Position numbers and translations under genes: made by a program
Source: Bacteroidia bacterium
Lineage (GTDB): Bacteria > Bacteroidota > Bacteroidia > UKL13-3
Assembly: GCA_023151275.1 (NCBI GenBank)
Contig: JAKLJI010000006.1
Location: forward strand, 1-64,000
Length of the DNA stretch: 64,000 bases
Reading direction: 5' to 3'
In this document: in pieces, positions 57,452-63,058 of the stretch
Layout: every line of letters begins with the position of its first letter
Position numbering within the stretch: position 1 is the first letter of the stretch
Notes under the pieces: model-generated
Seen by the model: only the letters and a program-made list of their open reading frames with translations
The model's database searches: none
What the model was told of the DNA's origin: nothing

Positions 57452-58888
57452 CTATCGTGTGTTTACAGGAGTGGTTCTTAGCCCGAAGCTAATTATGTGA
57501 TCGCTTTCTTTTCCAAAGTTCAAGAGCCAAGGTTGATAAGCGGAAATTGGCATTAGGAGGTCAATTCTTTCTTCGGTTTTGAACCAAATTAATTGGCGAG
57601 GTTCGCTTATTCTACTTAAAAAATCGGTTTCAGGTTCATTGATAAATCGTGCATGGTAAGCATCTTTTCCAGTTTTTAGCCAAATGAGGTCCGGTAAATT
57701 GGATAGTGGCTTATCGCTATTCAGGTGAAGTTCTATCTCACCATTTTCAATACCTTTCCAATAGGCTGTTGCATATCCTCCTGTTCCGTTTTTCTTCATG
57801 GATAGGGCTTTAATAATCAACAGACCCGGTTGAACGAGAGCGAATAACACTACCAGCGCAGGTATGAGATTATGGATAAATTTTATGTGAATAAATTCAT
57901 CCCAAATTAATTGCAAGTAAATTAATCCATATAAGCTAAGGGGAATCCACATAGGGCTTAGCAATCTAGGCCACTGCTGGGTTCTGATATTTCCTTGGAT
58001 AAGTAGGAAAAACAGGTAAGAACTAATCAACCAAAACAAGGTGCTTAAGAATTTTTTTCTTTCGTCTGCTGCTGGATAACCTTTTAAATGAATTCCTGAA
58101 TATATCCAGCAACCGATGCCTAGCAAGGCCATTATCCATTGCATGGGAGTAGCTTTTAAATACGGGGCGAGTTGTATTTTATCGATTAAATTGTGTTGAC
58201 CAAGAGGTAATCCCGAAATGACATAATTTCTTCCTATCCAAATTAGCAAGGGTATCAATGCGAGTAGAAGAACTTTTGTTTTGTTTACGATTTCGTTTTC
58301 CGTTTTATGGAGAAGAAGCAGTACAACCACACCTGGTAAAATTAGTAAACCTGTAAATCTACTAATTAGAAGCAAGCTCAATAGAATGCTTGCATGAATC
58401 ATGCTTTTCTGGTTGTTCAGCGAGCGATGAAAGTTCCAGATAAATGCCATTAGGAGTGCAATGAACAGCATTTCAGAAAGTACCCAAACACCATTGCTTA
58501 CAAATGTGGTATATGGGAAGAACACAATTGGTAATGCCATGGTTAACCAGTTTTTCCTAATGAAATGCTGAAGTTGCATAGCGCCAATCATCACTGCCGT
58601 GATAAGAAGCAAATAGTTAAGGATTGCAGCCCAAGTTATGGGATTCATTCCCAGTAAATAGGCGGGACTTAAAAGGATAGGATACAAGGGCGTTGCATTG
58701 AGGTAATGGAATCCATCAAACTGAACGAATCCATTGCCTTGGACAAGATTTGAGGCAACCGATAAGTAATTTGCAGAATCGCAGGAAAGTGCTGGCCCAA
58801 ATCCCGACAATGCTAAGACATAGGCTGCGCTTAGGACAAGAAGCGAAATAATCCACTCAAGGCTGATGAGCACCCGAATTTGTTTCAT
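57452..58888 (-). CDS. GT-C-fold-like membrane glycosyltransferase
   Basis: The 478-aa protein begins at 58888 (MKQIRVLISLEWIISLLVLSAAYVL); the upstream in-frame extension is discarded. It has about ten to eleven transmembrane helices. The first periplasmic loop reads FGPALSCDSANYLSVASNLVQGNGFVQFDG, with the acidic/Tyr pattern of PMT/ArnT-type lipid-linked sugar transferases (D/E in loop 1), and GLPLGQHNLIDKIQLAP follows later. A ~120-residue soluble C-terminal domain ends the protein. It is probably involved in glycolipid or protein O-glycosylation, and the acceptor is unknown. Confidence 0.7.
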   Translation of the reverse strand: MKQIRVLISLEWIISLLVLSAAYVLALSGFGPALSCDSANYLSVASNLVQGNGFVQFDGFHYLNATPLYPILLSPAYLLGMNPITWAAILNYLLLITAVMIGAMQLQHFIRKNWLTMALPIVFFPYTTFVSNGVWVLSEMLFIALLMAFIWNFHRSLNNQKSMIHASILLSLLLISRFTGLLILPGVVVLLLLHKTENEIVNKTKVLLLALIPLLIWIGRNYVISGLPLGQHNLIDKIQLAPYLKATPMQWIMALLGIGCWIYSGIHLKGYPAADERKKFLSTLFWLISSYLFFLLIQGNIRTQQWPRLLSPMWIPLSLYGLIYLQLIWDEFIHIKFIHNLIPALVVLFALVQPGLLIIKALSMKKNGTGGYATAYWKGIENGEIELHLNSDKPLSNLPDLIWLKTGKDAYHARFINEPETDFLSRISEPRQLIWFKTEERIDLLMPISAYQPWLLNFGKESDHIISFGLRTTPVNTR

Positions 58889-58962: not shown

Positions 58963-59011
58963 AAGTTTCAGAAATAATTGAAAGTTTGAAAAATGCCTTT
59001 ACCTTTGTCCT
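58963..59011 (+). promoter_or_regulatory. gbsR promoter with overlapping operator
   Basis: TTG (58978-58980), 19-nt spacer and TACCTTTG (59000-59007) form a consensus promoter. The dyad AAGTTTCA-N8-TGAAAGTTT (58964-58987) covers the -33 element. A bound repressor would block the polymerase. GTG starts 4 nt after the -7 element. Confidence 0.72.
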
Positions 59012-59515
59012 GTGAATGTAGAGCAAGCAAAGGCAAAGTTTATTCAATCCTGGGGGACCTTTGGTTCGGAATGGGGAATCAATCGAACCATGGCGCAGAT
59101 TCATGCTTTGCTTCTTATTTCTCCGGTAGCCTTGAGCACTGAAGAAATTATGGCCGAGTTGAGTGTTTCAAGAGGTAATGCAAATATGAATTTGCGCAGC
59201 TTGATGGATTGGGGGATTGTATTTAAAGAATTGGTTCCCGGGGAGCGTAAAGAATATTTTGTGGCTGAAAAGGATATCATGAAAGTTGCTCGTCAAATTA
59301 GCAGAGAGCGCCGTAAACGTGAGTTGGAGCCTGTGCTTGGAATTCTTTCTGAAATTGCTACCATTAATCCTGGCACCAGTAAGGAGGGCATTGAACTGAA
59401 AAAAGTTGCAGGCAATATTCATGAAGTTGCTCTTCGTGTAGATGATGTTCTCGACAAATTTTCAAGGTCGGATGAGAATTGGTTTTATAAAATGGTTTTA
59501 CAACTCATGAAATAG
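59012..59515 (+). CDS. GbsR/MarR-family transcriptional regulator
   Basis: The 167-aa protein starts with GTG (MNVEQAKAKFIQSWGTFGSEWGINRTMAQIHALLL), the usual GbsR opening. The winged HTH spans ~25-80 with STEEIMAELSVSRGNANMNLRSLMDWGIVF and ERKEYFVAEKD; a helical C-terminus follows (KRELEPVLGILSEI ...). Proteins of this family repress membrane- or osmolyte-related genes. It is followed by two paralogous small membrane protein genes. It likely autoregulates via the two similar dyads at 58964 and 59533. Confidence 0.9.
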   Translation: MNVEQAKAKFIQSWGTFGSEWGINRTMAQIHALLLISPVALSTEEIMAELSVSRGNANMNLRSLMDWGIVFKELVPGERKEYFVAEKDIMKVARQISRERRKRELEPVLGILSEIATINPGTSKEGIELKKVAGNIHEVALRVDDVLDKFSRSDENWFYKMVLQLMK

Positions 59516-59532
59516 CATTTTTTTTGATTTTA

Positions 59533-59556
59533 AGTTTCAAAAAATATTGAAAGTTT
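59533..59556 (+). promoter_or_regulatory. Second copy of the GbsR-type operator
   Basis: AAGTTTCA-N8-TGAAAGTTT repeats the upstream dyad with identical spacing and identical arms between gbsR and the first membrane protein gene. Confidence 0.65.
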
Positions 59557-59568
59557 AGGAAGTTTGAT

Positions 59569-59931
59569 ATGGAAATTGAAGACGTACATCGATTGCTTTA
59601 CCTGCTAATCTCGGCGTATATAACCTTGGTAATTGGTGGGACACTTTACCAAAGTGGAGCAGTTTTTTTGAAAGATGTTTTCTCAAGCAATGCGGCAATG
59701 GCAGTGTTACTTAACCGGTTTTTGTTAACCGGATATTACCTGATAAACCTTGGTTATGTAACAGTTGTCATGGCAAATCTTCCAAAAACAGAATCCTATT
59801 TTGAACTCATCAATAAACTATCTGCCGAACTTGGATTTTTGATGTGCGCTCTGGCACTTATCCATTATTTTAACATCTGGTGGATTCGGCACTTTCACAA
59901 GCAATTGGACACTCTTTTTAATCACCCTTAA
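59569..59931 (+). CDS. Small three-helix membrane protein, paralogue A
   Basis: The 120-aa protein has three predicted transmembrane helices, with LYQSGAVFLKDVF after the first and a central LTGYYLINLGYVTVV. It is similar throughout to the next gene product (LFNSGKVFMLDIF; KVGFYLLNLGFALHI; matching AELGFLM/EQLGGFS then a final helix), so the pair arose by duplication. No family was recognised. It is under the putative GbsR operator and 11 nt before its paralogue. Confidence 0.75.
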   Translation: MEIEDVHRLLYLLISAYITLVIGGTLYQSGAVFLKDVFSSNAAMAVLLNRFLLTGYYLINLGYVTVVMANLPKTESYFELINKLSAELGFLMCALALIHYFNIWWIRHFHKQLDTLFNHP

Positions 59932-59942
59932 TTCATAAAATC

Positions 59943-60335
59943 ATGGAAAATCATTCTTTTCACCTCATCGCTTATGCCGTTTATCTTCCAATCAGTTGCC
60001 TTTTAACCTGGTATGTGGCCAACTCTTTATTCAATTCAGGTAAAGTATTTATGCTTGATATTTTCAAAGGTAGACAAGACATTTCCAATGCAACCAACCA
60101 AATGTTTAAGGTGGGCTTCTATTTGCTTAATTTGGGCTTCGCCTTGCATATCCTTGAAATTGGGCAGGAGTTGAACGATTACCGGCAAACCATTGAGGCT
60201 TTGAGCGAGCAACTGGGTGGCTTTAGCATTTATCTTGGTTTGATGCTCTTTTTCAACTTGTTCCTGTTCTTCCGTGGCAAGAGTAAAAGTGCTGAAATGG
60301 AGAAAATTCAAAAGCTTAATTCCATGATTTCCTAA
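59943..60335 (+). CDS. Small three-helix membrane protein, paralogue B
   Basis: The 130-aa protein has three predicted transmembrane helices plus a short charged C-terminal tail (GKSKSAEMEKIQKLNSMIS) that paralogue A lacks. The shared core is NSGKVFMLDIF, VGFYLLNLGFAL and IEALSEQLGGFSIYLG. Tandem similar subunits suggest a hetero-oligomer in the inner membrane. A perfect terminator 70 nt after the stop closes the gbsR unit. Confidence 0.75.
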   Translation: MENHSFHLIAYAVYLPISCLLTWYVANSLFNSGKVFMLDIFKGRQDISNATNQMFKVGFYLLNLGFALHILEIGQELNDYRQTIEALSEQLGGFSIYLGLMLFFNLFLFFRGKSKSAEMEKIQKLNSMIS

Positions 60336-60404
60336 AATTTAGGGAGGAAATCTCAACCACTTTTCACCCCAAAGCAGGAATTCATATTCCTAGGTCAACC
60401 ACAT

Positions 60405-60432
60405 AAAAAATCACCCGATTGGGTGATTTTTT
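60405..60432 (+). terminator. Intrinsic terminator of the gbsR unit
   Basis: AAAAAATCACCC (60405-60416), GATT loop, GGGTGATTTTTT (60421-60432): a perfect stem with A and T tracts on both sides. Confidence 0.95.
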
Positions 60433-60491
60433 AATAGTATTTGAAGGATTACTTTTGATTGCCTTAATGTCAAACTTAACCCCCGAAAGTT

Positions 60492-60581
60492 ATGTATAAA
60501 ATGATTGACCGCCGTTTAATAGTACATGCAATTATTTTATTGAGTTTGCTTGTACTAAATTTTTTGATTATCAAACCTTAA
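60492..60581 (+). CDS. Candidate 29-aa single-pass membrane peptide
   Basis: The peptide begins MYKMIDRRLIVHAIILLSLL and ends in VLNFLIIKP, i.e. a basic N-terminus followed by one hydrophobic helix. TACTTTTG (60450-60457) is an exact -7 element 34 nt upstream, the same octamer as before the 52321 candidate. It lies between a terminator and the 3' end of hrpB, which it overlaps by 4 nt. Evidence is limited to ORF shape and promoter. Confidence 0.45.
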   Translation: MYKMIDRRLIVHAIILLSLLVLNFLIIKP

Positions 60582-63058
60582 TTCCTGGGTCTCCCTTTGG
60601 CAACCGGTGTTGCCGTCCAAGGGTCATCAGGCCAGGAGTGTTTTGGATACCGACGCTGAAGTTCACTTTTCACTTCAAAATAAGTGGTATTCCAAAAATT
60701 CTTTAAATCCCGGGTTACCTGTACAGGTTTAAACCCGGGAGATAACAAGTGAAGTACCACGCCTATCTTACCCTGATTTATACGCGGGGTTTCGGGTACT
60801 CCAAACATCTCTTGCAGACGAACAGCCAAAACCGGAATCTCTCCATTCTCAAAATATTCAATTCTCAGCTCAGAACCGCTCGGCACTTTAATTTTTTCGG
60901 GTGCAAGAAGATTCAACTTCTGTTGCAGTTCCCAGTCTAGCGAAGAAAGCAATGCTTCAGAAAGTTTTATCTTTTCCAGATCATCACCATTCCTGCAGTT
61001 TCTTAGGTATGGTTCAAGCCATTCTTGTTCTTGCTCAAAAAGTAAAGATTTACTAAGATCTGGCCAGTTTTCTTCCGGATTCCATTTTCGTAAGGAACAA
61101 ATTCTTGCTACAAGTTGATCAAAGGATGAATCCACATGCAACAAGCTTTCCCATTCCTTTTTTATTGCATGGAGTAAAACAGCAACCACTTTTGCTTCGG
61201 AGGGTGAATTTAGTGGCTTTGATTGAAGCAGGATGTTGCCAATTCTCAGTTCCTTGGCTGCAACAATTTCTGCCTTTCGCGAATTCCAGGAGATATTCTC
61301 CCGTTCTTTTACCATTGGGAGAAGGTCTTTGGGATTTAAGGGTGCAGCCAAAAATATTTTCCCCAATCCATCTCGGGAATCCATGTGTGCAATTGCTAGC
61401 CAGCTTTCGTTTGCCAGGTCATCCTTATGGCCGGCCATGGCAATTTTCCCATTCGATAATTGGAATTGCGCATTGTTGCCCGGTCTTGCAGAAGCAATGC
61501 GTTCGGGATAGGCATGTGAAACCAAAAGTCCCGTAAGAAAGGGATCGGTGGGTTGATTGTTTTCTTGAATCTTAAGTAAGCTTCTGTAAGATTCAGCAAG
61601 TTTTATCAAGCGCTGGAACTTTTTACTTCCGGCATTTTCTTTTCTTGCCCTTCGCAATGCATCAATTCTCAGGTTGATATCAATACCGCTTTCACGGGGT
61701 AAGGGATCTCTTTCTTCCAATATGGCTGCAATATCGCAGGCCAATGCCTGGGATTCTTCATCCTGTGCAAGCAGGAGCATATGGGCAATACGTGGATGAC
61801 AGGCAAGCTGATGGATTCGTTTTCCGTGTGCACTGAGTTTTTTGTTTTCAAGTGCACCTAGCAGGTCCAATAAATCATAGGCTTGTGCTACATGTGCTTT
61901 GGGTGGCTCATTCAACCAGTTTAATGCTCCAACATCGTTTACACCCCAACAGGCCAATTCCAGTACCAAAGAGGCTAAATCGGCTTGCTCAATTTCGGGA
62001 GTACGATGATCTGCTAAGCGATTGTGTGTGGCCGCTGTCCACATGCGGTAACAAACACCTGGATACAATCTTCCGGCTCTTCCTGCGCGTTGGTCGGCAG
62101 AATCTCTTGATATTTGAATGGTTTCAAGGCGTGATAAACCTGTAGCAGGATCGAAGCGTTGAATTCTTCCTAAGCCGGTATCAACAACAATTCTTACGCC
62201 TTCAATGGTTAATGAGGTTTCAGCAATACTTGTGGCCAAAACCACTTTTCTTTTTCCGGATTTGTTGGGTTGAATAGCCGCTTGTTGCTCATGTTGGGGT
62301 AACATGCCAAACAAGGGATGAATGGCAAATCCCTTCAATGCAGGAAATAGTAAATCTGCACAACGTTTGATTTCAGCTTCTCCCGGAAAAAATGCGAGAA
62401 TATCGCCTTCTTCTTCCTGAGCAGCTTGAATGATTACACGGGCAGCAGTTTCACTAATCATGCGTTCATCCTGACCTCCAACATAACGAATATCAACAGG
62501 GAACATGCCTCCCTCACTTTGAATGACCGGTGCTTTTAATAGGCTACTCAGTTTCGGCATATCCAAGGTTGCCGACATGATAAGAATGCGAAGTTCAGGG
62601 CGCAAGATTTGCTGTGCTTCGCGGCAGAGGGCAAGTGCAAGGTCTGCATGAATACTGCGTTCATGGAATTCATCAAAAACAACTAGACCAACCTGTTCAA
62701 GCGAGTTGTCTGATTGCAGCATGCGTGTCAAAATGCCTTCAGTTACTACTTCAATTTTAGTCGATGCAGAAACCCGATTATCAAACCGAACCCTATATCC
62801 AATTTCCTTGCCGCATTCAGTTCCCAGCATGTCCGACATCCGCCAGGCAATGCTTCTGGCTGCTAAACGGCGAGGTTCCAGCATTAGAATTTTCTTTCCT
62901 TCCAGCCAAGGCTCATTCATCAAAGCCAATGGTAGCAATGTGCTTTTTCCGGCACCTGGAGCAGCTTGAACAATGGCGGTTGAATTTTCGGCAAGTTTTA
63001 GCCTAAGCTCTGGAATTATGCCGGCTACAGGCAGCGGATAGTTAAGTGAATCAAACAA
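60578..63058 (-). CDS. hrpB: ATP-dependent helicase HrpB
   Basis: The 826-aa DEAH/RHA helicase has Walker A AAPGAGKSTLLPLAL, LEPRRLAARSIAWRMSDMLG, DEFHERSIHADLALALCREAQ (motif II), SATLD, LATSIAETSLTIEGVRIVVDTGL, QRAGRAGRLYPGVCYR, and a C-terminal HrpB-specific region (YPKHSWPDDPWTATP at the end). Its biological role in bacteria is poorly defined. Its start is TTG at 63058 because no in-frame ATG precedes the conserved N-terminus (LNYPLPVAGIIPELRLKL). Length is usual for HrpB. Confidence 0.95.
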   Translation of the reverse strand: MFDSLNYPLPVAGIIPELRLKLAENSTAIVQAAPGAGKSTLLPLALMNEPWLEGKKILMLEPRRLAARSIAWRMSDMLGTECGKEIGYRVRFDNRVSASTKIEVVTEGILTRMLQSDNSLEQVGLVVFDEFHERSIHADLALALCREAQQILRPELRILIMSATLDMPKLSSLLKAPVIQSEGGMFPVDIRYVGGQDERMISETAARVIIQAAQEEEGDILAFFPGEAEIKRCADLLFPALKGFAIHPLFGMLPQHEQQAAIQPNKSGKRKVVLATSIAETSLTIEGVRIVVDTGLGRIQRFDPATGLSRLETIQISRDSADQRAGRAGRLYPGVCYRMWTAATHNRLADHRTPEIEQADLASLVLELACWGVNDVGALNWLNEPPKAHVAQAYDLLDLLGALENKKLSAHGKRIHQLACHPRIAHMLLLAQDEESQALACDIAAILEERDPLPRESGIDINLRIDALRRARKENAGSKKFQRLIKLAESYRSLLKIQENNQPTDPFLTGLLVSHAYPERIASARPGNNAQFQLSNGKIAMAGHKDDLANESWLAIAHMDSRDGLGKIFLAAPLNPKDLLPMVKERENISWNSRKAEIVAAKELRIGNILLQSKPLNSPSEAKVVAVLLHAIKKEWESLLHVDSSFDQLVARICSLRKWNPEENWPDLSKSLLFEQEQEWLEPYLRNCRNGDDLEKIKLSEALLSSLDWELQQKLNLLAPEKIKVPSGSELRIEYFENGEIPVLAVRLQEMFGVPETPRINQGKIGVVLHLLSPGFKPVQVTRDLKNFWNTTYFEVKSELQRRYPKHSWPDDPWTATPVAKGRPRN

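Follow-up and report, generated by a model that had tools for sequence, protein, structure and literature searches.

The locus described here raises two questions: how is an operon made up of a GbsR-type regulator gene and the genes of two small membrane proteins controlled, and what might it be for? The locus lies in a 64,000-nucleotide stretch of Bacteroidia bacterium DNA (contig JAKLJI010000006.1), called the window below. The regulator is of a known type; its regulon and the two-position layout of its operators were previously unreported in the literature searched.

The operon and its two operators

The features of the locus, numbered from the first base of the window, are the following:

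58963–58987, no strand: operator 1, an exact match to AAGTTTCA-N8-TGAAAGTTT that covers the promoter −33 TTG (58978–58980)
59000–59007, plus strand: −7 box TACCTTTG of the gbsR promoter, assigned from the sequence
59012–59515, plus strand: gbsR, 167 aa with a GTG start, predicted GbsR/CydE-type repressor of the MarR superfamily
59532–59556, no strand: operator 2, an exact match with the same arms as operator 1, between the gbsR stop and the A start
59569–59931, plus strand: membrane protein A, 120 aa, no family, model pLDDT 93.7
59943–60335, plus strand: membrane protein B, a paralogue of A, 130 aa, no family over the cut-off, model pLDDT 90.1
60404–60433, plus strand: terminator-like hairpin with a T-rich tail, from a hairpin search in which shuffled sequences average 2.6 such matches

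The initial annotation had described a duplicated operator with identical arms, and the pattern search of the window found exactly that: two copies with no mismatches in either arm. The arms are imperfect complements of each other, because the third base is G on both sides (AAGTTTCA vs. AACTTTCA). Operator 1 can be placed over the −33 element of gbsR, as had been claimed, because its TTG lies 19 nt upstream of the −7 box; together the two elements fit the promoter pattern TTTG/TAnnTTTG given for Bacteroidota in PMC6847099. The second copy does precede the first membrane gene, lying 12 nt upstream of the A ATG (59569), and is not accompanied by a −7 box.

In the 3.9-Mb genome, the exact pattern occurred only at operators 1 and 2. 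With up to three mismatches allowed, the window contained six matches, a number that includes reverse-strand readings of the same palindromes, compared with a mean of 0.87 in shuffled sequences; none of 100 shuffles reached six. Places in the genome with one or two mismatches included C74, C5, and others, and a looser genome-wide pattern gave three extra places (C74, C5, and C22). All three lie within coding sequence and were ruled out as extra regulon members in this genome, so that inspection of the exact pair and these three places left only two intergenic copies. The C74 match (L212, G000:C74:9000-14000) is inside a long ATPase-like gene whose neighbor appears by eye to encode a type I restriction methylase.

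The operon contains the regulator gene and the genes of two homologous small membrane proteins, all on the plus strand, as annotated. Its closure by a terminator was upheld only in part: the hairpin with its T-rich tail is present at the expected end, but because of the shuffle average it is no more than a plausible terminator. Both flanking genes are on the minus strand and seemingly outside the unit; the one at 57452–58888 encodes a divergent membrane protein that matched nothing in Pfam, and the one at 60578–63058 appears by eye to encode an HrpB-type helicase.

Among 60 gbsR promoters with a −7 box, its end was 3–5 nt upstream of the start codon in 44 and exactly 4 nt upstream in 35; the window gbsR, with its GTG, is one of the 44. 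The G of the −7 box is placed at −5 in Flavobacterium johnsoniae by PMC6847099, and the box is reported to span −12 to −5 in F. psychrophilum (PMC9723704). From the distance between box and start codon and these published positions, the gbsR mRNA is predicted to be leaderless, with its start site on the GTG start codon. For F. psychrophilum, PMC9723704 puts leaderless mRNAs at only 5.5% of those of 890 genes.

Identity of the regulator

The closest solved structure by sequence was MJ223 (PDB 1ku9; E = 2.4e-12 over residues 3–97), an archaeal protein of Methanocaldococcus jannaschii. Family searches gave NCBIfam CudC (6.3e-11), below the curated cut-off, and Pfam MarR_2 (1.5e-5), at 25.5 bits against a cut-off of 27. 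Judged from its sequence, the gbsR product belongs to the GbsR-type branch of the MarR superfamily and has a winged-helix DNA-binding domain related to those of GbsR and MJ223.

Comparison with the studied members separates it from those that respond to osmotic stress. There are no aromatic residues at positions 84–149 of the window regulator, and thus no aromatic cage of the osmostress type; no Opu or Gbs genes were found among the neighbors. In both respects it differs from the osmostress GbsR/OpuAR/OpcR subgroup, whose Bacillus subtilis members have a choline cage of aromatic residues and osmoprotectant genes as targets. The B. subtilis GbsR operator is also different and has a 4-bp spacer, according to PMC7396694. 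The positions of the sites are nevertheless alike: in B. subtilis, OpcR is reported over the −35 region and GbsR downstream of the start, where it acts as a roadblock (PMC7396694), and operators 1 and 2 of the window mirror these two positions, which would suit a repressor of the adjacent genes.

A likeness in the operator was found with CydE of Alishewanella sp. WH16-1, described in PMC6096048 as a GbsR-type repressor of cytochrome bd with the DNase footprint TATTTCAGAAATTTCTGAAAGTTCA. This footprint contains TTTCA-N8-TGAAA, the same core and spacer as in the window operators. Like CydE, the window regulator would be the autoregulated first gene of its operon; unlike in that system, cydAB, the CydE target, is absent, and neither cytochrome bd nor cydDC genes were found in the operon or in the gene clusters that recur across 58 mapped loci. 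CioR of Chromobacterium violaceum is likewise reported to be a GbsR-type repressor of its own operon, which, unlike the one studied here, controls cytochrome bd (PMC11837568).

Six gbsR-type loci on proteobacterial plasmids, taken from the 40 listed of 156 records, were compared with the Bacteroidota loci. In the five that are annotated, gbsR lies upstream of cydD or cytochrome bd genes; the sixth is an unannotated record. The exact core was present upstream of gbsR in five of the six, and the unannotated locus (L231) has a different palindrome. No second site was seen between the regulator and the next gene in these six loci, in contrast to the Bacteroidota layout. The regulators of the plasmid loci are about 190 aa long, compared with 167 aa here, and the two groups are well separated in a tree whose root is arbitrary and serves for drawing; even so, the DNA-binding region and an ERKKRE linker were common to 72 Bacteroidota proteins and the six proteobacterial ones. 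That some other regulator binds the palindrome, with gbsR as a bystander, is hardly credible, because the site goes with gbsR and A-B throughout the phylum and occurs with the regulator in Proteobacteria, and because the CydE footprint is the same motif.

Operator conservation across Bacteroidota

The initial annotation had named loss of the operator from relatives with the same operon as the result that would speak against it. The operators, their positions, and their linkage to the genes were therefore followed through the phylum, and the core was found to be conserved across Bacteroidota. A scan of genome contigs with protein B gave 72 loci, of which 71 were used and one (L095, 48% over 40 residues) was left out. 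Together with those of 8 genomes found to have B among 58 relatives, the A-B loci gathered, including the window and some near-duplicates, numbered 79, and 32 of these had gbsR alongside. The site was present upstream of gbsR in 30 of the 32; of the two misses, L084 starts inside gbsR and L016 ends only a short way upstream of it, and a longer stretch from the latter genome (L205) does show the site before gbsR. The site also lay within 200 nt upstream of A in 27 of 31 gbsR-linked loci in which A was aligned. Of 45 A-B loci in which gbsR is not a neighbor, 44 had the site before A. Genomes of this last kind had gbsR elsewhere in 19 of 20 cases tested.

To avoid redundancy, identical regulators were counted once, which left 80 gbsR loci, of which 78 extended far enough upstream to be scored; L115 (a distant MarR protein) and six loci of a longer type (L171–L176) are not part of this set. 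The core TTTCA-N8-TGAAA was present before gbsR, as operator 1, in 70 of the 78, and in 60 of these 70 a −7 box followed 33–35 nt past the start of TTTCA. Of 71 loci with operator 1, 49 had a second site within 160 nt past the gbsR stop and 22 did not; none of the eight loci lacking operator 1 had one, and eight of the 78 regulator loci had neither operator. Operator 2 stood next to gbsR whichever gene came next, whether A, another small membrane protein, a DCC1-like gene, or a DUF2071 gene. Two loci (L190 and L205) have three operator copies each, the third between downstream genes. The longer GbsR type of L171–L176 comes from other Bacteroidota groups and has no TTTCA-N8-TGAAA at the gene start; the next gene appears by eye to encode a YraN-type protein in three of the six.

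The specificity of the motif was evident from controls. In 163 pooled loci (1.21 Mb, redundant), TTTCA-N8-TGAAA occurred 243 times, spacers of 3–7 and 9–15 gave 2–13 occurrences, and nine other five-base palindromes with an N8 spacer gave 0–6. A chance origin of the operators was rejected by the shuffles, the genome-wide count, and these spacer controls. The operator combined with a −7 box was found at 31 places in 22 of 25 genomes, compared with none for the reversed control. Because most of these places were gbsR or A-B promoters, by comparison with the mapped loci, the regulon appears to be small.

The two operators differ in their surroundings. None of 50 second sites had a −7 box, and the first ATG lay 2–40 nt downstream of them, whereas in separate A-B operons the operator was accompanied by a −7 box at +34 or +35 at 30 of 46 sites. 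Because of this difference, operator 1 is read as a promoter operator and operator 2 as an internal operator.

Three other explanations of operator 2 were weighed. One is that the two operators act together, by DNA looping or cooperative binding over ~570 bp, and that operator 2 is not a roadblock. The shared arms and a separation that stays at about one gbsR length speak for such joint action, and CydE likewise is reported to have two sites in one promoter region (PMC6096048). The distances between operators, however, ranged from 563 to 949 bp among loci with no evident helical rule, and operator 2 is located within the region that is transcribed, like the site in B. subtilis gbsAB; we regard joint action as possible but unlikely. 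A second, weak promoter for A-B that includes operator 2 would agree with the use of the element in promoters of A-B operons without adjacent gbsR, but it is quite improbable, because the second sites have no −7 box and, in the window, such a box would have to lie past the start codon. It is very improbable that operator 2 is an mRNA hairpin hiding the start of the next gene. Its closeness to the next ATG would suit that role, and structure near the start is reported to lower initiation in F. johnsoniae (PMC6847099); the window stretch, however, folded like shuffled sequences (z = 0.41), the palindrome formed no hairpin of its own in the best fold, there was no Rfam match, and the same sequence, where it covers the −33 element as operator 1, lies outside the transcript. 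The reading that we prefer is that operator 2 is an internal roadblock site.

Membrane proteins, target genes, and a proposed mechanism

The homology of A and B that had been annotated was confirmed, with 31% identity over 80 aa (E = 3e-13). Their description as three-helix proteins holds for the three long helices in each AlphaFold model, but each model has a short extra helix, and hydropathy analysis showed three peaks for B but four for A. A is the less conserved of the two, with a mean column identity of 47% vs. 58% for B; its residues H99 and N102 were invariant in 44 of 44 sequences. In the tree, B formed one fully supported clade, A lay apart, and three single-gene versions fell between or among them, from which A and B appear to be ancient duplicates that form paired clades. 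The single-gene versions (L189, L191, and L170), which follow gbsR and have mixed A and B features, may resemble the state before duplication; they also show that A-B pairing is not universal. A was encoded directly before B at nearly every B locus. Because A and B are paired across the phylum, a hetero-oligomer of the two is the most likely form.

Membrane-stress sensing or a small transporter had been suggested as the purpose of the system, and neither received direct support. A and B had no Pfam or NCBIfam match over the cut-off and, by Foldseek against PDB, no match at E ≤ 0.001. A alone was run with VIA-align and gave Z 10.5 to a designed bundle, in a range common for helical bundles. Weak matches of B to Na+/H+ antiporter subunit B, YdiK, SUa-2TM, and Cornichon were below cut-off and mostly short, and were treated as composition effects; low-scoring V-ATPase, VTC, ferritin, and Orai fold rows were set aside, the A and B searches having given generic helical bundles.

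The genes that follow gbsR in 58 mapped loci encode TIGR01777-type epimerases (38), A or B (33), DCC1-like proteins (16), SRPBCC proteins (14), and DUF2071 proteins (9); the map covers operon proteins of 75 aa or more, and an additional locus lacked gbsR. Targets were named from Pfam, the SRPBCC protein falling below its cut-off. We take the epimerases to be of the TIGR01777 family, with which Pfam Epimerase and DUF1731 agree, and the SRPBCC name is presumably correct as well, Pfam Polyketide_cyc agreeing with it. The view of a self-contained system therefore stands for the window genome, with its two intergenic operator copies, but not for the relatives, in which operator and regulator also precede TIGR01777, DCC1-like, SRPBCC, and DUF2071 genes as well as those of other small membrane proteins, and in which A-B often form a separate operon with its own operator.

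Around the only TIGR01777 match over the cut-off in the window genome (C44), the stretch retrieved did not contain the operator core. Near this gene (G000:C44 ~118090, L256) there appear, by eye, to be a MerR-type regulator and a photolyase, and because of them there is a hint that the TIGR01777 family also takes part in a light or oxidative response. In relatives (L194, L199, L196, L201, and others), operator 2 is followed by a second, highly divergent set of tiny membrane proteins, of which many contain a WQ motif; the set lies between gbsR and the gene of the TIGR01777 protein. An iterated profile, in which drift is possible, joined 31 of 48 small proteins; A and B had no match to it.

In raw counts across 198 genomes of the phylum, B was found in 10 and the regulator in 60. 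The regulator match reached E ≤ 1e-43 in 24 genomes, and all 10 genomes with B were among these 24. Among 58 relatives, 17 had the regulator and 8 had B, 7 of the 8 with the regulator. Exceptions were G013, in which A-B are present and both gbsR and the operator are absent, and the L089 genome, which has A-B and the operator and no gbsR match. A pseudogene assignment for B in G013 ('1 TAA') was dropped when a 122-aa open frame was found. Six relatives (L243–L248) have the regulator with no operator and unrelated neighbors, and for these reasons the regulator may have been reassigned in them.

We consider it probable, with some reserve, that a CydE-like GbsR repressor governs the locus as an autoregulated operon, with a promoter block, an internal roadblock, and A-B as its output. 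The literature provides analogies for binding of this sequence by a GbsR-type protein, for repression by the studied members, and for the roadblock mode of B. subtilis; binding by the window regulator itself, the division of labor between its operators, and the complex and role of A and B are what we infer. A CydE-like GbsR dimer would bind TTTCA-N8-TGAAA. At operator 1 it would cover the −33 element and exclude RNA polymerase from the promoter, and at the promoterless operator 2 it would stop elongating polymerase before A-B, so that the downstream genes would be shut off more tightly than gbsR. With a leaderless gbsR message, some repressor would still be produced. An inducer would free the operators from the repressor, upon which A and B would be made together and form a hetero-oligomer in the inner membrane. 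They would take part in one response together with the TIGR01777, DCC1-like, SRPBCC, and DUF2071 proteins whose genes stand under the operator in relatives. Because of this gene company, our guess at the role of A-B is that they process a hydrophobic or redox-active compound at the membrane or protect the cell from it. A bolder proposal, which we think rather unlikely, is that a CydE-like GbsR with a leaderless message commands a regulon throughout Bacteroidota, repressing simultaneously by promoter block and by internal roadblock. The main product of this regulon would be a previously undescribed family of paired three-helix membrane proteins, which would form an obligate heteromer and handle the hydrophobic or redox-active inducer of the regulator itself.

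In the open-licence literature, no Bacteroidota GbsR regulon of this kind and nothing on point for the recurring target families of the operator was found. According to the 2018 survey of GbsR proteins, Bacteroidetes neighborhoods give no consistent picture of the regulated genes (PMC6207618); the operator fills part of that gap. It would be a DNA site for Bacteroidota GbsR, tied to a footprinted proteobacterial site and having a small, recurring set of targets. Two membrane proteins without a family gain a regulatory context, and the GbsR group gains its first concrete target set in Bacteroidota.
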